Below, in pieces: positions 415-7,631 of a stretch of 64,000 bases of DNA. The notes under the pieces are model-generated. The model was given only the letters and a program-made list of their open reading frames with translations. It had not been told where the DNA came from and did no database searches. The DNA is from Acidobacteriota bacterium (lineage in GTDB: Bacteria; Acidobacteriota; Holophagae; Acanthopleuribacterales; Acanthopleuribacteraceae): contig JAGQSC010000009.1 of assembly GCA_020439745.1 (NCBI GenBank), positions 1-64,000 of the forward strand, read 5' to 3'. Both the position numbers and the translations under genes were made by a program. How positions within the stretch are numbered: position 1 is the first letter of the stretch; every line of letters starts with the position of its first letter.

Positions 415-2328
415 TTACTGTTTCAAGAGTGGGTCGTTTTCGATGGTTTGGCGCAAGTTTGGTGATGCCAACTGCAAGGCGCGGTCCAGCCAAATGGACA
501 GGTCTGCCTCGTGTCGGATCGCGGCTATTTGGGCACGTCGATAGCAGGCGATGGCGTAGAACGGATCGGTTTCCGGTACCTGTTGCAACATACCCGCCGC
601 GTCATTAAGACGTCCTTGATCCATCAATACCATGCCCAGATCCAGGTGCCGATCAAAACCACTTGGATCCCACTGCCATGCCATTTCCAGAGCCTCAGCC
701 TTCTGTGCCTGGTCCCCTAAGCGTTCAGCCATGTCGGCCCAGCGTGTCGCGGCCTGCGCGGTTTTCTGCGACGAAGCCAGTTGTTGTGCCACGATCAACG
801 CCTGATCGGATTGGCCTGTAGCGTCATAAGCTCGTTCCAAGGCCAGTAGCGCCACCTCTCGCGACCTAAATCCTTGTAAGAGTTCAATGGCCTGGGTCCA
901 GCGAGAAAAGCGCGCACAATGGAGTCCATAATACAAACGGAGATCGTTTGAGTCGGGCAAAAGTGCTGCTGCTTGGTGGAAACGCTCATCAGCGAGCGTT
1001 TCGTGTCCCAACATAGACGTACACACGGCCATTCGCATCAAAACCGAAGGGTTGCCTGGGTCCTGTTCGGCGAGCGACTCGAATTCAGAAAGTGCTTCAG
1101 CGTAGTGGTGATTGGCAAACAGATGTGATGCGCGATCCAACTGCCCGATGAGAGGTACCTGATCATACGGATCAGGTCGATCCTCCAACCCAATCGGAGA
1201 TATTGCATCGTTTGCTGTGTAGCCCAGACTGGCAAGCGTTTCGATGTCTGCTAAGGTGAGTTCGGACTGCACTCTGGCTGGCTCGAACGGGATGTTTTCA
1301 AGCTTTGACCGCAGAGGGTGTCCGTTGGGAGCCGAGTTTGGAGCTTCGTCGCGGCCCATTACCAGGCGGAACGATTTGCCCCGAACCATCTTTTCCTGTT
1401 GGCTGATGGCGGCCATCAGGGGTGCCCAACCAAACTGTAGATAGGGCTGCATAGATTCTGCAATCACAATATCTTCGGTGTACTTGGCGCCATCGAACGA
1501 TCCCTTACTCAGGTCGCGGATCATGTCTGCCACCCGACGAATACTTACGGGTCTTTCGTAACGGGATCCGGGCTCCCAAGACGTCCAGACAAGCAAGGGT
1601 ACATGAAGCGTGGCATTGCCGAGAAGGATACCGTGACCCTGCTCTCCAAGGTCGCCCAAGCCCTCCCCGTGATCGCCCACCACGATGATGGCATGAGGGC
1701 TGTCGCCCCAATGTTGTTTACAAGCTTTGATCAGTCTACTTACGTGATGATCGACGAAAGCAATTTCACTGTCGTAGGCCAGATCGCGATTGAAGTCGGG
1801 GTGCTGGAGATGAGGTGCATGGGGGTCATAAAAATGGCACCACAGAAAGTCACTGTTTGCCAGATGTTCCAGGGCTAGATCTACGGTGGCATTGGCCGGC
1901 CGCTCCGACCCCTCGGGTTGTAAATAGGCGGCAAATCCGCGACTGAGACCAAATTGGGAGGCCAGGGGATACCCCGAAACCACCGCAACTGCCCTACCCT
2001 CCAGTTGTTCTTGGATCATGGGTACCGCAGCATTCAGAACCCGTCCGTTTTCGCGTATGCCGTGCTCGTAGGGATACAATCCCGTCAACATGGACGTATG
2101 TGATGCGAGAGTCGTGGGCACGGGCGCAAAGGCGTTTAGGTAAACCGACGCACCCGTGGCCAATTCATCAAGTTCAGGCGTTTGTGAGACCTCTGCCCCA
2201 CTAAATCCGAAACGATCCTGACGAACAGTGTCCAGTGAGATTAAGAGAATCTTCGTGGGTTCCTGTGGGCGATTGGTCGAACTACACCCCACAATCCACA
2301 AACAGCATAGGAAAACGAGCCACTTCAT
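415..2328 (-). CDS. Sulfatase-like alkaline-phosphatase-superfamily lipoprotein with TPR repeats
   Basis: 637 residues. The N-terminus MKWLVFLCCLWIVGCSS is a lipoprotein signal peptide with a lipobox Cys, so the protein should be membrane-anchored and face the periplasm or outside. A sulfatase-type hydrolase domain follows, with metal-binding ISLDTVRQDRFG near the start and GDHGEGLGD..GHG later. The nucleophile region reads TLASHTSMLTG: the Cys/Ser of the CxPSR sulfatase motif is Thr and the Arg is His, so it is probably not a formylglycine sulfatase but another phospho- or sulfo-transferase. About 250 C-terminal residues form TPR-like helices. The open frame extends further upstream, but the signal peptide fixes ATG 2328. 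No Shine-Dalgarno is visible; a TATGAT hexamer ends 6 nt before the ATG. It diverges from lysA. Substrate unknown. Confidence 0.85.
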   Translation of the reverse strand: MKWLVFLCCLWIVGCSSTNRPQEPTKILLISLDTVRQDRFGFSGAEVSQTPELDELATGASVYLNAFAPVPTTLASHTSMLTGLYPYEHGIRENGRVLNAAVPMIQEQLEGRAVAVVSGYPLASQFGLSRGFAAYLQPEGSERPANATVDLALEHLANSDFLWCHFYDPHAPHLQHPDFNRDLAYDSEIAFVDHHVSRLIKACKQHWGDSPHAIIVVGDHGEGLGDLGEQGHGILLGNATLHVPLLVWTSWEPGSRYERPVSIRRVADMIRDLSKGSFDGAKYTEDIVIAESMQPYLQFGWAPLMAAISQQEKMVRGKSFRLVMGRDEAPNSAPNGHPLRSKLENIPFEPARVQSELTLADIETLASLGYTANDAISPIGLEDRPDPYDQVPLIGQLDRASHLFANHHYAEALSEFESLAEQDPGNPSVLMRMAVCTSMLGHETLADERFHQAAALLPDSNDLRLYYGLHCARFSRWTQAIELLQGFRSREVALLALERAYDATGQSDQALIVAQQLASSQKTAQAATRWADMAERLGDQAQKAEALEMAWQWDPSGFDRHLDLGMVLMDQGRLNDAAGMLQQVPETDPFYAIACYRRAQIAAIRHEADLSIWLDRALQLASPNLRQTIENDPLLKQ

Positions 2329-2334
2329 GGCGGC

Positions 2335-2340
2335 ATCATA
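2335..2340 (-). promoter_or_regulatory. -10-like hexamer placing a leaderless start at the sulfatase gene
   Basis: TATGAT on the minus strand ends exactly 6 nt before ATG 2328, and no Shine-Dalgarno lies between. That spacing puts the transcription start at or next to the A of the ATG. No convincing -35 was found. Confidence 0.4.
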
Positions 2341-2461
2341 GCTCAACCGCTCGACAGCGGGATTCGATTTCCTTAAGATGCTCAAAACAGATACACAGGA
2401 GTTGGTTATGTTGCTCTCAATCATGGTCTTAGCCTTCATGTTTGGCGGTGAGTCGGTCACC

Positions 2462-3757
2462 ATGGATAAACCCGATCCTTACCACGATGCCACCGGTCGT
2501 TTCAGCCATGACCAACTCGTCTCGCTTGTGCGTGAGCATGGCAGCCCGCTTTATGTATACGACGGCGACTTAATCAACAAAAAATACGACCTTTTTTACG
2601 GAGCTTACAAGAAACACTTCGATGATGTACAAGTTCTGTATGCCGTCAAGGCCAATACCAACATGGCCATCATGTCACTACTGAAACAGCGAGGTGCAGG
2701 TGCCGAATGTATTTCAGGTGGTGAGATTACCACCGCGCTGAAACTGGGTTATGAAGGCAAGCAGATACTGTTCACATCATCGGCCAAAACAACTGCAGAA
2801 TTGGAGTTGGCGATCAGCCAAGGGGTGGTGATTAACCTTGATTCCATGGAGGATCTGGCGCATGCAGGTGAAGTGGCCGCACGCCTACAAAAGAAGGCCC
2901 ATATTTCTTTTCGCATCAATCCAGACGTAGATCCCCACACTCACAAGCATATTGCTACCGGTCATAAATTCTCTAAGTTCGGTATTCTCCTGGAAGATGA
3001 CCAGATCATGCACGCCTACAAACTGGCCCATGAACATCCATGGCTGGAAGTGTGGGGCCTGCACAGTCATATTGGCTCACAGATCACCGACTGGACGCCG
3101 TTCCAGCAAAACGCGCGCGTACTGGTGCATTTTATTGCGCGCTTGAAAGACGAGTTGGGGATTCAGTTGAAATTTATCGATCTGGGTGGCGGATTGGGTA
3201 TCCCCTATCACGATGGACAAAAAACGGCCTCACCTGAGGATGTAGCGCAAAATGTGGCTGAAGTCTTGAGACCGGCGTTCGAAAAGCTGGGTTATATGCC
3301 GTCAATTTGGTTGGAGCCGGGCCGGTTCTTGGTTGGCGATTCAGGCATACTCTTGGCCACTGTTATTTCGGTAAAGGACACCCCATACACTGATTTCATC
3401 AATGTGGATACGGGATTCAATCACCTGGTTCGTCCGATTTTGTACGAGGCATATCACCGGATAAGGGTTCTGAATCGCAAGGACGACATCCGTTTGTTTG
3501 ATGTCGCTGGGAATATTTGTGAAACGGGCGACATTCTGGGACACAACCGGCTCCTTCCCACACCCAAGGCCGGCGACATGATTGCCATCCTCGATGCGGG
3601 GGCTTATGGCTACACCATGGCCAGCATGTACAACAGTTTTGCACTGCCTGCGGAGATTTTGGTACGAGGCGACCAAGCCACACTGATCCGCGAACGAAAG
3701 ACCTTGGATGATTTATTGGAAGGTCAGATCATTCCTGCCGATCTGGCACCTCAATAA
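2462..3757 (+). CDS. lysA: Diaminopimelate decarboxylase
   Basis: 431 residues, the usual size. It decarboxylates meso-diaminopimelate to L-lysine with PLP in the cytoplasm, the last step of lysine synthesis. Visible motifs are YAVKANTN with the PLP lysine, GLHSHIGSQI, the glycine loop DLGGGLGIPY, EPGRF, GNICETGDILG with the active-site Cys, and DAGAYGYTMASMYNS. Start choice: ATG 2462 has GGTGAG 9 nt upstream and gives the N-terminus expected of the family. ATG 2408 in the same frame has a stronger AGGAG, but would add 18 mostly hydrophobic residues odd for a cytoplasmic enzyme. The 3' end overlaps the convergent CRTAC1 gene by 29 bp. Confidence 0.93.
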   Translation: MDKPDPYHDATGRFSHDQLVSLVREHGSPLYVYDGDLINKKYDLFYGAYKKHFDDVQVLYAVKANTNMAIMSLLKQRGAGAECISGGEITTALKLGYEGKQILFTSSAKTTAELELAISQGVVINLDSMEDLAHAGEVAARLQKKAHISFRINPDVDPHTHKHIATGHKFSKFGILLEDDQIMHAYKLAHEHPWLEVWGLHSHIGSQITDWTPFQQNARVLVHFIARLKDELGIQLKFIDLGGGLGIPYHDGQKTASPEDVAQNVAEVLRPAFEKLGYMPSIWLEPGRFLVGDSGILLATVISVKDTPYTDFINVDTGFNHLVRPILYEAYHRIRVLNRKDDIRLFDVAGNICETGDILGHNRLLPTPKAGDMIAILDAGAYGYTMASMYNSFALPAEILVRGDQATLIRERKTLDDLLEGQIIPADLAPQ

Positions 3758-5489
3758 CCGCATCACGGGTGACTCGATAGGTACCCGGATGTAGATTGCC
3801 CAAATCCATAGCAAGCCCATCGGCCCAACGGATGGAACCATGGGCAGTCTTGGCTTGGCCCAAGCCAAATATCAATTCACTGGAATGCTGCGACAAGTAC
3901 GAGACGTCACCTCCAAACCACTGGATCTGTGTATGGACCGTGGTCACGCAAACACGGGCACCAAACCTCAAATAGTCCGACGCCTCAAGAACCAAGTTCA
4001 AGGATGCTCCCACCTGTGAACGATTTTCGATGAGTGTAATGCCTGCCCCGTTCTCGCTGATGACTAGGTCTATGTCTCCGTCTCGGTCCCAATCACAAAG
4101 GGCCATGCCGCGTGCCGATCTATCTTCGTTCAAGGGTGTACCCGGTGCCACATTGACCATACGACCGTCACGGTTCCAAAACACGAATCCGGGTTCGGCC
4201 CTTAAATGGCTTGGATCTTCGGAGCGTTCCAGGGTACTGCCATTGACCACCACTAAATCTGGAAACCCATCCAGATCCAGGTCGCCAAAACCACACCCCC
4301 ACCCCACCATTGGGACAGAAAGTTCCCCCAAAAGCATGACGCGGGTGCGGTCGCGGTATTCAAGAACCGAACTCTCATCATTGAACAGTGACAAGTAATA
4401 GGCGTTTTCTTGAGCTACCCAGTGGGTCAAAAACAAATCTGGTAATCGATGGCCACGATCAAATCCGACAGCACGGCCTACTGAAAGACCCATGGAGCCC
4501 CTGGGATCAGCCGTCCCAGTTTCCGTGGACACATCCAAAAAGGCTAGGCGCCCTTCCACAGCCGATGTGTTCAGGAATAGACGGTTGGTGGATACGTCAT
4601 TGTTCACATACAGATCCAGCCAGCCATCGCCGTTCAGATCCACCAGAGTGGTGGCAAGGCTCCTTCCGTCTGGATTGTCCAATCCGTATAGCGCGGCAGC
4701 TTCCACAAAGGTTCCATCCCCTTGATTGACGAAAAGACTATTGGGAGCGGGGTCATAGCTGCTGGGATTCAGCGTGAAAGGGACCTCGTATGCCAACGTG
4801 ACGGTGGGCTTTCGAATCCCACCCAAATCCTCGAAATTTACGTAGTTGCATACATAGAGATCCAGATCACCGTCGCGGTCTATGTCGCCCCAGGCTACAC
4901 CCATGGACCAGCGTTTGTCCCCTACACCCGCTGTTTCAGTGACATCCGTGAACTGTCCCTGACCATCGTTACGATAAAGTTTGTTGGGTCCATAGTTGGT
5001 GACATACAAGTCCTGGTCGCCATCATTGTCGTAGTCTGCGAACGATGCACCCATGCCCATGTGGCCTATGTTTTCAGCGCCACAAATCAGTCTCATCCAC
5101 TCGCCGGATTCAAATGTCCAGAGTGCGCTGCTGCAGTTTATGTCGCATGTGTGTTGTTGGGTACAGGCGCTCACGGCGTAGAGTTCCCAGTCACCGTCCA
5201 TATCCACATCGCCCCAAGCCACACCTGATCCCATATCTTCGGGCAGGATTCGGGTACGCGCGGCACGGTTCTGACGGAACTGATTGAGAGGGGTGCTTTT
5301 ACTTAATACAAGCTTGATGGGACTGGCTGTCAGTTGTGCCACTTCGTCGCTTTGTATGCGTTTTGATTGGGCGACCAAATTCGGGTCGCGGGCCCTATTA
5401 ACTGCCCAAAACGTAGCCGCCAAGGCTGCCACCAAGATCGTAGAAAAGAACGAAGCCGCCATGATGCGACGTTGTCTGCGACCCATCAC
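3729..5489 (-). CDS. CRTAC1-family FG-GAP/ASPIC-UnbV repeat protein, membrane-anchored
   Basis: 586 residues. Residues 10-30 form one hydrophobic N-terminal segment after MMGRRQRR, giving a membrane anchor or uncleaved signal. The body carries at least six FG-GAP/VCBS repeats with calcium-type loops such as DVDMDGD, DYDNDGD, DIDRDGD, DLNGDG, DLDLDG and DWDRDGD, a seven-bladed-propeller signature. The last about 80 residues match the ASPIC/UnbV domain (LRFGARV, IQWFGG, LGQAK, IRWADG, PGTYRV). The enzymatic role of this family is not established. Its ATG overlaps the stop of the upstream pentahaem cytochrome by 4 bp (ATGA), so the two are translationally coupled and probably act together outside the cytoplasm. 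The 3' end overlaps lysA. Confidence 0.88.
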   Translation of the reverse strand: MMGRRQRRIMAASFFSTILVAALAATFWAVNRARDPNLVAQSKRIQSDEVAQLTASPIKLVLSKSTPLNQFRQNRAARTRILPEDMGSGVAWGDVDMDGDWELYAVSACTQQHTCDINCSSALWTFESGEWMRLICGAENIGHMGMGASFADYDNDGDQDLYVTNYGPNKLYRNDGQGQFTDVTETAGVGDKRWSMGVAWGDIDRDGDLDLYVCNYVNFEDLGGIRKPTVTLAYEVPFTLNPSSYDPAPNSLFVNQGDGTFVEAAALYGLDNPDGRSLATTLVDLNGDGWLDLYVNNDVSTNRLFLNTSAVEGRLAFLDVSTETGTADPRGSMGLSVGRAVGFDRGHRLPDLFLTHWVAQENAYYLSLFNDESSVLEYRDRTRVMLLGELSVPMVGWGCGFGDLDLDGFPDLVVVNGSTLERSEDPSHLRAEPGFVFWNRDGRMVNVAPGTPLNEDRSARGMALCDWDRDGDIDLVISENGAGITLIENRSQVGASLNLVLEASDYLRFGARVCVTTVHTQIQWFGGDVSYLSQHSSELIFGLGQAKTAHGSIRWADGLAMDLGNLHPGTYRVTRDAVIEVPDRQE

Positions 5490-7543
5490 AAAGGTGCGCC
5501 AAGTTTCCGTATGGGTATGATGGCCTCCGCCGAATTCTGAGTCACGACGGGTTGGACCACACCGAAGTCTTCTTCAAGTCCTGGTAATACTAGATCAAGG
5601 AACTCCTGTCGGTAGCGTCGGAAATTCAAATCCACATGAACAGAAATGTTACCCTCGCCAGGCGCCAATAATGCATAAGTTTGGCGATCGGTATGGCCCG
5701 GATAGATCACGCGCTGGCCGGAACCGCCGGCTTTCCGCCACAATTGGTGTTCACGAAGAGGCTCGCCGTGTTCGTCCAGAGGGACGCCCTCCAAAACTAG
5801 TGTGCCTTGGTTACGGGGATTACCGGCTTGATGAATCACGCCTAGCGTATCTGTTATAGCGCGTGTTTCAGGATCTACAGCTCCCCATTCTCCAATTAAG
5901 GCACCGCTACCGGCATCGAAAGCTTGCACGTGGAGCCACGTTCGCACAAAGTCCAAGGGACCTGTCGTCAGATTATGGCCAGCCTTTCGGTTGGAGACGA
6001 CCACAGTAAATGAAACTGGGGTTTTGGGGTCTGCTGACTCTGGTGTCAATATTTCCAGTCCCACGACTGGTCCCTCTGGCCAACGATGCGCGATTTCTGG
6101 AATCACCGTTTCTCCGCGCATCCATGCATGGGTTAGCGACACCTGTTGTTCAAAGTGAGGAAGTTTCAAAAGCATGGGCATGAAGCTGTTGGTAGCAATG
6201 AATCCGTGGTGACGATGAGAATTGTCAGCGCCGCGACTGGGATCGGTTATTTCGCCGCGGGCAGGATCCTTGGAATCGGCGACCAAGCGCATATGGCAGT
6301 CTGTGCAGTTGAGATCTGTGTCGGGTTCTTCTCTGTGCCAGTGACTTTGTTGCCACTCGTCGAATTGGTTTTGACCTGGCGACATACCGAAGCGGTTCAA
6401 TTCTTCAGGGATAAACTGTTTGTGACAGCTACCGCACGCTTCTGGGGTTTTGGCGATGGTTCGATCGTAGTCGGCCAAGTGTTTCCGGGGGAACACGCGA
6501 ATCAGAAATTCAGAAACGTTTCTGCGCCAACCTGACTCCATTTCCCAGAGATATGGGGTGGGCGCGACAAGTACATAGTCTCCGTTACCTCTGCGGTCGA
6601 CTTGTTCCAAGCTGTGGCATGTCACGCACGAAATGCCCTCCTTAAAACCGGGTGCCGACAGATCCTTGGACTCGGCACTCTTCATTCCAGCGAACAGCGA
6701 AATGGGGTCATGGCACCCCGCGCAGTACCTTGTTTCAGCTGGATTACGGTCGGACGCAAATCGAGATTGTACAGCCTGAAATGGAGGATTCATGGCGGCA
6801 AACCGATGCGCGCTTGGCTCCCACTCGGCGAGGATTTGTGTATGGCAGCCGGTCGTGCCGCAACTATCGGAACGTGCCAAAACCTGGGGTTGGATCAGGA
6901 GTCCATCGTTAGTTCGCGCATAGCTTGGCGCAAAGGGTCCAGCCTCTTTGCCGTATCCATCGACGTGTTCATAGTCTTCGGGTACTGGCCTGCGAACATC
7001 GTGTGTCCCGAACACGCCGGTGGCCAGCCAGCAGATTGCGAAAAAGATGGCCAGTGTGCCTGCACTTTTTGCGAGCAACCCAAGTTGCGCGTTTCGCAAG
7101 AGACGATCGCGTGAGATCCATCGTCTTCGGACCGCAAATGTCAGGTGGCATGCAATGAGCGGAACCATAGCCAAGCCGGCGATCAGGTGAATGAATGACA
7201 TGCTCGACGAGATTCTGACGGCCATCAAGCCCTGCAGGGTGACCCAGAACCCGGTAAAAAGTGCAAGGAACAAGAGAGCCGCGGATATGAAACCTATCAG
7301 CGAAGTGGCGTTCAACTTTTGGTCCCACCAGGTTTTCATGTGAGCTACGAGGTAGATGAGCCAGGGTGCCACCATCATCAGTCCGAGCGCGGTGTGCGCG
7401 AGTGTGAGAACCTGAGCGAATTGGTCGTACGGCAAGGCATAGGCCCACATGCCGCTGAATCCTTCTAAAAGGCATGCAATCACCGATATCCGAGCGAGCG
7501 GCGCGGTCCACCCGCGCAAGACACGAGTCTGAGTTGGATTCAT
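5486..7543 (-). CDS. Membrane cytochrome: b-type-like helical domain fused to a periplasmic pentahaem c domain
   Basis: 685 residues. Five transmembrane helices lie within the first 180 residues. His50 and His68 on one helix and His119 and His133 on another could ligate two b haems. The exported part has five haem c motifs: an unusual CX4CH (CGTTGCH, 228-234), then CAGCH (274), CVTCH (306), CGSCH (370) and CTDCH (413), followed by about 270 residues without haem motifs, predicted beta-rich. It probably moves electrons between the quinone pool and a periplasmic or surface partner. ATG 7543 has GGAG 8 nt upstream; the GTG at 7552 is too close to it. The next gene is the coupled CRTAC1 protein. 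The exact electron acceptor or substrate cannot be told. Confidence 0.85.
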   Translation of the reverse strand: MNPTQTRVLRGWTAPLARISVIACLLEGFSGMWAYALPYDQFAQVLTLAHTALGLMMVAPWLIYLVAHMKTWWDQKLNATSLIGFISAALLFLALFTGFWVTLQGLMAVRISSSMSFIHLIAGLAMVPLIACHLTFAVRRRWISRDRLLRNAQLGLLAKSAGTLAIFFAICWLATGVFGTHDVRRPVPEDYEHVDGYGKEAGPFAPSYARTNDGLLIQPQVLARSDSCGTTGCHTQILAEWEPSAHRFAAMNPPFQAVQSRFASDRNPAETRYCAGCHDPISLFAGMKSAESKDLSAPGFKEGISCVTCHSLEQVDRRGNGDYVLVAPTPYLWEMESGWRRNVSEFLIRVFPRKHLADYDRTIAKTPEACGSCHKQFIPEELNRFGMSPGQNQFDEWQQSHWHREEPDTDLNCTDCHMRLVADSKDPARGEITDPSRGADNSHRHHGFIATNSFMPMLLKLPHFEQQVSLTHAWMRGETVIPEIAHRWPEGPVVGLEILTPESADPKTPVSFTVVVSNRKAGHNLTTGPLDFVRTWLHVQAFDAGSGALIGEWGAVDPETRAITDTLGVIHQAGNPRNQGTLVLEGVPLDEHGEPLREHQLWRKAGGSGQRVIYPGHTDRQTYALLAPGEGNISVHVDLNFRRYRQEFLDLVLPGLEEDFGVVQPVVTQNSAEAIIPIRKLGAPL

Positions 7544-7631
7544 GTAGTTCACTCCGCTGGGAGGCAGTTTATCACGATTAAATGACCGTCTAACCTTATA
7601 TTGCGACGCAGAGTAATCCGTCAGGTTGCGT

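Follow-up and report, generated by a model that had tools for sequence, protein, structure and literature searches.

Proteins of the CRTAC1/ASPIC-UnbV family can reach dozens of copies in some Acidobacteriota genomes, and to our knowledge their biochemical role has not been described. The locus considered here lies in a window of 64,000 nucleotides (the whole stretch of DNA that was analysed) from contig JAGQSC010000009.1 of the Acidobacteriota bacterium assembly GCA_020439745.1, where the gene of one such protein overlaps that of a multihaem membrane cytochrome. It raises the question of whether both products form a conserved redox unit, and of what such a unit might do. The unit is built from known parts in a new combination, and is apparently undescribed; no description of a cytochrome-ASPIC pair was found in the literature searched.

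Architecture of the overlapping genes

Both genes are encoded on the reverse strand of the window, to which all coordinates below refer; lysA, a sulfatase-TPR gene, a GGDEF gene and dnaE are the neighbors of the pair in the window. The open reading frame of the membrane pentahaem cytochrome (5486–7552, 688 codons) starts with GTG at 7552, and that of the CRTAC1-type FG-GAP/ASPIC-UnbV protein (hereafter, the partner) covers 3729–5489 (586 codons). A preliminary description assigned the pair to 3729–7543, where 7543 is an in-frame ATG three codons inside the cytochrome gene. The 4-bp overlap that it reported is present in the junction sequence GTGATG, where the GTG start of the partner overlaps the TGA stop of the cytochrome (GTGA, 5486–5489); the alternative ATG start overlaps the same stop by 1 bp (TGATG). 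A start codon allowing a 4- or 1-bp overlap occurs in 25 of 32 pairs of the subfamily to which we will refer as A (a second one being B).

The cytochrome is a fusion of a five-helix membrane domain, a five-haem-c domain and an Ig-like domain. Its AlphaFold2 model, computed from 85 sequences (pLDDT 84.5, pTM 0.84; a 15-sequence model with a haem-domain pLDDT of 59 was discarded), places five long membrane helices before the haem domain. The membrane domain (7010–7501) carries H53 and H71 on helix 2, and H122 and H136 on helix 4, all of them conserved in 99–100% of 91 related proteins, as would be expected of the di-haem-b domain suggested for this protein; judged from this conservation, the four residues are the putative ligands of two b haems. 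Four histidines on membrane helices are likewise found in di-haem cytochromes b of the b561/Ni_hydr_CYTB/DUF4405 type. The domain of the window protein itself stays below the Pfam cut-offs (PF01292, E = 0.17), and that of one relative (L043) matches DUF4405 with 28.3 bits (cut-off 26.7).

The first haem c motif is a CX4CH (CGTTGCH, 6842–6862; C231-GTTG-C236-H237), and is followed by CXXCH motifs at residues 277 (CAGCH, 6710–6724), 309 (CVTCH, 6614–6628), 373 (CGSCH, 6422–6436, with an invariant Lys378 after it) and 416 (CTDCH, 6293–6307). All five are essentially invariant among the 91 related cytochromes, which span about ten phylum-level groups, and C231, C236 and H237 are strictly so; the loss of these motifs in homologues, which would have spoken against the initial proposal, is not observed. 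Rather than an oddity of this genome, the CX4CH first motif is a defining trait of the subfamily. The Pfam models Cytochrome_C554 (4e-8) and Cytochrome_C7 (3e-7) match the protein, and cytochrome c assembly genes are present in the genome. Candidate distal ligands are H249, H358, H449 and H526 (invariant in the 91 proteins), together with H446 and H602 (97%), and these six would be enough for five bis-His haems. One of them, H526, belongs to an invariant KxGHN/D...TGPL segment of the Ig-like β-sandwich domain (5504–6073).

The partner consists of a putative N-terminal membrane anchor (5397–5462), a seven-blade FG-GAP propeller (3990–5282; FG-GAP repeats, 3e-37) and an ASPIC/UnbV domain (3786–3965, residues 509–568; PF07593, UnbV_ASPIC 38 bits, cut-off 23.4). 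Calcium-loop motifs at residues 94, 152, 202, 284, 403 and 466 occupy six of the seven blades, that of blade 5 (342) being degenerate, in agreement with the calcium-type propeller initially recognized. The anchor, called by a hydrophobicity heuristic (run length plus Arg cluster), is a 22-residue run devoid of charged or polar-amide residues and preceded by an Arg cluster; median run lengths are 22 and 20 in subfamilies A and B, respectively, whereas the 12 unpaired ASPICs that this genome encodes have runs of 9–17, which argues for membrane anchoring of the partner ASPICs and not of the unpaired ones. The idea of an exported redox complex needs correction here: with its long, uncleaved-looking anchor the partner is probably not freely exported, and the inner membrane is the likely location of both proteins.

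Pairing and co-inheritance

An ASPIC gene lies directly downstream of the cytochrome gene at 82 of 85 testable loci from about ten phylum-level groups (80 loci plus L082 and L092, first assigned to an extra upstream ASPIC), so that the pairing is not a peculiarity of this genome, which would have spoken against the preliminary description. Homologues were gathered by an alignment-based scan of genome contigs, whose pattern bias affects the count of unpaired cytochromes; among these, L141 and the deep-branching L055 have no ASPIC neighbor, and the cytochrome may thus work alone in some cases. The two genes form a probable electron-transfer module that is widespread in environmental bacteria, most of which have been recovered as metagenomes; a cultivable carrier is the Opitutaceae bacterium EW11 (L108).

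Phylogeny leads to the same picture. All 31 subfamily A partners form one clade (support 1.0) with zero outsiders, and all A and B partners form a clade as well (support 1.0), whose sole two extra leaves proved to be B-type pairs; the partner ASPICs are one clade apart from the unpaired ones. Distances between cytochromes track those between their partners (Mantel r of 0.83 for A and 0.88 for B), with none of 999 permutations as high. As about 90 homologues show both the motifs and the gene order, the association goes well beyond chance: the pairing is genuine and old, and the two-gene unit is well supported.

The partners also bear a private residue signature, rare or absent in unpaired ASPICs, with 12 of its 15 residues on one propeller face. 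The conserved face includes R78, D85, R276, S300, D328, R330, H356, W357, S418 and T419, six of which (R276, S300, D328, R330, H356, W357) fall within 4419–4664; the signature could also belong to a site that has nothing to do with the cytochrome. Neither conserved Cys residues nor a haem motif were found in the partner ASPICs, and a tryptophylquinone-like (quinone-cofactor) propeller was discarded, as conservation does not extend to the Cys residues of the window protein. With one ASPIC subfamily linked through its clade, gene order and signature to a multihaem protein of quinone-linked appearance, the function of the family becomes testable, and there is a concrete lead on the role of bacterial CRTAC1-like proteins, with residues to mutate already named and one partner to co-purify. 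Beyond the pair, the neighborhoods (clustered after masking out-of-frame reading frames over both genes) are diverse and give no pointer to an electron donor or acceptor; TPR proteins are the sole recurrent third component.

Relation to described proteins

The haem and Ig-like part of the cytochrome (model residues 223–679) aligns with residues 36–435 of the Thermochromatium tepidum cytochrome c552 (5ZE8) over 341 residues (Z 22.3, rmsd 3.3, 19% identity). This is the sole PDB match by sequence profile, and the other structure-search matches cover the Ig-like domain only. Cytochrome c552 belongs to the PHC family, together with ExtKL, Gsu2801 and the sPHC/lPHC proteins of cable bacteria, all with an Ig-like domain after the five c haems, as in the window protein. 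PHC proteins possess signal peptides and are periplasmic, and no clear function has been assigned to the low-potential c552 (PMC11976967). The cytochrome described here differs from them in its fusion to a five-helix membrane domain, in the CX4CH of its first motif and in the ASPIC gene downstream; the five hydrophobic helices ahead of the haem domain make it a membrane-fused variant rather than a plain member of the family. By description, it can also be likened to CbcL of Geobacter sulfurreducens, an inner-membrane b- and c-type cytochrome and quinol dehydrogenase; our protein has four conserved membrane His and five c haem motifs, its b haems being putative. CbcL carries nine c haems, its b domain lies C-terminally, and we know of no ASPIC partner for it.

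The partner shares with human CRTAC1 (9ETN; profile match, E = 6e-30) and with bacterial ASPIC/UnbV proteins the propeller of calcium-binding FG-GAP repeats and the ASPIC/UnbV domain. Secretion through a cleavable signal peptide is usual in this family, without strictly defining it; the partners differ from CRTAC1 and the other ASPICs in their own clade, their apparently retained anchor and their signature. In the accessible part of one report, an FG-GAP “CRTAC1 family” gene adjoins hydrazine-synthase-like haem proteins, some with c554 domains; its neighbors there are HZS alpha and beta-gamma homologues, and that part describes no membrane pentahaem protein (PMC12758564). Assignment of our pair to such a cluster was rejected because HZS homologues are absent nearby.

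Proposed electron flow and possible roles of the ASPIC partner

The reading that we favor, and consider somewhat probable, is that of one inner-membrane redox complex linking the quinone pool and the periplasm, with the anchored ASPIC propeller docked on it. Its first subunit would have the N-terminus of the five-helix domain inside, and b haems held by the pairs His53/His122 and His71/His136; a pentahaem-c/Ig-like domain of the c552 (PHC) type would form its periplasmic part, and the two b haems and five c haems would relay electrons to or from the quinone pool. The second subunit would be tethered in the same membrane by its anchor, its conserved face either docking on the haem domain or serving as receptor for a periplasmic redox partner or substrate. 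We slightly prefer the direction from quinol to the periplasm.

Electrons could conversely run from the c haems to the b haems and into the quinone pool, the ASPIC face binding and oxidizing, or presenting, a periplasmic substrate, and the pair acting as a periplasmic dehydrogenase. The clustering of pair-specific Arg, Asp, His, Trp, Ser and Thr residues on one face is consistent with this. All 11 pair-bearing Acidobacteriota genomes examined carry NrfD-type, cytochrome b and haem-copper oxidase genes; the haem-copper oxidase and other quinol-oxidizing chains could use extra quinol, and on account of these genes the pair was also rejected as a replacement of complex III. However, no cofactor is known for the partner, which also lacks a haem motif and conserved Cys residues, and neighborhood clustering revealed no substrate genes co-occurring with the pair, so that we regard this direction as possible but rather unlikely. 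The associated proposal that paired ASPICs bind the substrate, or are the catalytic subunits, in a novel class of periplasmic oxidoreductases linked to quinone, with the Arg/Asp/His/Trp face as active or binding site, seems to us slightly less probable still; if true, it would be the first enzymatic role for the CRTAC1/ASPIC fold.

The partner might otherwise help to assemble, anchor or stabilize the haem protein, without entering directly into electron flow or substrate binding. Strict pairing and tight gene overlap would suit an obligate structural partner, as would the recurrence of TPR proteins, which are typical scaffolds; yet the strongly conserved polar face exceeds the usual needs of a scaffold, and the L055 and L141 cytochromes have no ASPIC gene beside them. 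We regard this explanation as improbable. We hold it a little more doubtful that the pentahaem domain is itself catalytic, reducing nitrite, hydroxylamine, NO or peroxide at one five-coordinate haem to which the ASPIC protein shapes access: weak similarity to NrfB/NrfA/c554 models and the invariant Lys378 agree with it, whereas the six well-conserved distal His candidates would be enough for five bis-His haems, and the best fold match is the low-potential c552, with no clear role assigned (PMC11976967). Finally, a chance or merely regulatory neighborhood is very improbable, and as an account of the general pattern the conservation data already refute it. ASPIC families are large (this genome has 14 such genes, and matches reach 46 among the genomes), but the other 12 ASPIC genes here all lie away from multihaem genes, whereas the paired ones keep their position, private clade and tracking distances across phyla.

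Anatomy of the gene pair

The pair is formed by a cytochrome gene (5486-7552, minus strand; 688 residues from GTG) and, downstream of it, an ASPIC gene (3729-5489, minus strand; 586 residues) encoding a CRTAC1-type FG-GAP/ASPIC-UnbV protein. The preliminary description started the cytochrome at 7543, where an in-frame ATG does exist, but the GTG at 7552 lies three codons earlier. The two genes overlap by GTGA, or by one base from the second start codon. Neighbouring genes comprise lysA, which is on the opposite strand, a sulfatase-TPR gene, one GGDEF gene and dnaE (assigned from its translation); none of them is recognisably related in function to the pair, which thus looks like a self-contained two-gene unit. 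The sulfatase-TPR gene (415-2463, minus strand) fuses a sulfatase-superfamily domain to TPR repeats, and its longest open frame overlaps that of the divergent lysA by 86 bp.

The cytochrome contains five haem-c motifs (CX4CH at residues 231-237; CXXCH at 277, 309, 373 and 416) and matches the Pfam families Cytochrome_C554 and Cytochrome_C7. An AlphaFold2 model with 85 homologues as input (mean pLDDT 84.5, pTM 0.84) predicts that five long helices (residues 18-181) are followed by the haem region and then a beta-sandwich; since positive residues come after helices 2 and 4, the N-terminus would lie inside and the haem domain would be periplasmic. Foldseek and VIA-align agree on the pentahaem cytochrome c552 of Thermochromatium tepidum (5ZE8) as the top structural match (E 5.6e-10, Z 22.3, rmsd 3.3 over 341 residues, 19% identity), the next rows being far lower (Z 9.9) and covering the Ig-like domain only; 5ZE8 is also the sole PDB match of the sequence profile. 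Structural likeness of this c552 to ExtKL, Gsu2801 and the pentahaem cytochromes of cable bacteria has been reported, and a PHC family proposed (PMC11976967). An alignment of 91 proteins shows next to no variation in all five haem motifs, the CX4CH spacing among them (no residue below 98.9%). On helices 2 and 4, the putative ligands of two b haems (His53, His71, His122 and His136) are conserved at 98.9-100%; His249, His358, His449 and His526 are invariant, and His446 and His602 reach 97%.

Recurrence and co-inheritance

Long, strong cytochrome homologues (E 1e-98 or better) occur in 14 other genomes among the 297 Acidobacteriota drawn (phylum inferred from named matches), and within the genus of the window a sister species possesses one with 60% identity, the same five motifs and an adjoining ASPIC gene. 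A pattern-based scan of named genomes yielded 349 relatives, the best 80 of which are labelled Acidobacteriota, Planctomycetota, Verrucomicrobiota, Lentisphaeria, Gemmatimonadota, Bacteroidota, Marinimicrobia, Krumholzibacteriia, Deltaproteobacteria or Chromatiales; single labels call for caution, as most are metagenome bins. Two subfamilies can be distinguished: A, to which the window protein belongs (48-60% identity), and B (about 32-39%).

At 85 loci the sequence continues downstream for 700 bases or more. In 80 of these, as first scored, the next same-strand gene encodes an ASPIC protein; L082 and L092 also have a downstream ASPIC, the first count having credited an additional upstream ASPIC gene. 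A downstream ASPIC gene is missing at L055, L141 and L139, the last sequence spanning just 1.1 kb. A 4- or 1-base overlap is possible from some start codon in 25 of 32 subfamily A pairs, and a 4-base overlap is found in 11 of 51 subfamily B pairs. The only feature common to the neighbourhoods beyond the pair is a TPR protein, which stands by itself at 12 loci (separate downstream genes at L120:10941-11834 and L128:10825-11688) and elsewhere fused to the ASPIC C-terminus (partners in L045, L048 and L052). Additional ASPIC genes outside the A clade occur immediately upstream of the cytochrome or in its vicinity at the subfamily A loci L082, L083, L088, L092, L096 and L114. L055 (G121:C7) and L141 are family cytochromes without a nearby ASPIC; L055, which branches deepest in the tree, could reveal how the cytochrome works on its own.

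In a 176-sequence ASPIC tree, all 31 subfamily A partners form one clade (support 1.0) with no outsider, and A and B partners form a joint clade (support 1.0) with two apparent outsiders only, both mislabelled B pairs (L126, with a split cytochrome frame, and L186, which duplicates the L043 locus). The paired ASPICs stand apart from other ASPIC proteins. Cytochrome and partner pairwise distances are strongly correlated (Mantel r 0.829 in A and 0.877 in B, to which shared ancestry alone adds; none of 999 permutations came near), and both proteins are co-inherited without partner swapping.

Partner signature and probable membrane anchor

Residues that are near-invariant in the partners, but seldom seen in a set of 80 other ASPICs, include these fifteen: R78, D85, P237, N241, R276, S300, D328, R330, H356, W357, A359, Q360, S418, T419 and L429. 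Counted in the FG-GAP register from the Ca loop's first Asp, the segments 8-16 residues before it and 14-19 after it correspond to the start of strand A and the end of strand B, which meet on one propeller face, opposite the Ca loops. They harbor 12 of the 15 signature residues vs. 24% of propeller residues (binomial 1e-5, descriptive only, because the segments were chosen after the residues had been seen). The presence of three arginines, two acids, one His and one Trp on one face suggests a docking or ligand site.

Partner N-termini show an Arg cluster and an uncharged run (median 22 residues in A, 20 in B), as in membrane anchors; in the 12 unpaired ASPICs of the window's genome this stretch is 9-17 residues long, resembling signal peptides, and none of their genes has a multihaem gene less than about 6 kb away. 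Judging from these simple hydrophobicity counts, the inner membrane probably retains both subunits, rather than exported as initially suggested.

Proposed function and related modules

The simplest reading, which we consider reasonably probable, is an inner-membrane complex in which electrons would pass from the quinone pool through two b haems and five c haems to a periplasmic partner, the ASPIC propeller docking by its conserved face; quinol oxidation is favored. The complex would thereby act like CbcL, an inner-membrane cytochrome combining b- and c-type haems where electrons exit the quinone pool (PMC6148476), a likeness of function and not of demonstrated descent. Electron flow the other way, the propeller then serving as substrate site, is unlikely, and a purely structural ASPIC protein still more so. 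A catalytic pentahaem domain, which overlaps with the other readings, is the least probable, since the candidate distal histidines are enough for five predicted bis-His haems, favoring electron transfer over catalysis. Replacement of complex III is ruled out: all 11 pair-bearing Acidobacteriota genomes examined keep NrfD-type, cytochrome b and haem-copper oxidase genes, and the module is thus an extra branch.

All domains of the pair were already known; no description of their combination was found in the open papers searched. The only joint mention found of CRTAC1-type genes and multihaem proteins concerns hydrazine-synthase-like clusters (PMC12758564), whose genes are absent beside the pair. 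The pair at L083 lies in a metagenome bin labelled Candidatus Scalindua (anammox group), of interest given those reported clusters.

A parallel module lies on the same contig as the window (G000:C51:204761-209412; L057:6761-11412), where the gene of a longer pentahaem cytochrome (934 residues, five ordinary CXXCH motifs, TPR tail) overlaps by 4 bp a further ASPIC gene whose product looks anchored. Cytochromes of this type adjoin ASPIC genes in a sister species and many Acidobacteriota, and their partners form a separate group in the ASPIC tree; the membrane pentahaem-ASPIC association therefore probably predates the A/B split. Elsewhere in the window's genome (G000:C6:225-233 kb; L167), three consecutive same-strand ASPIC genes with signal-peptide-like N-termini are spaced by about 3.5 kb, and two genomes of the same phylum (G050 and G024) show very large ASPIC expansions, with 46 and 39 matches, respectively.
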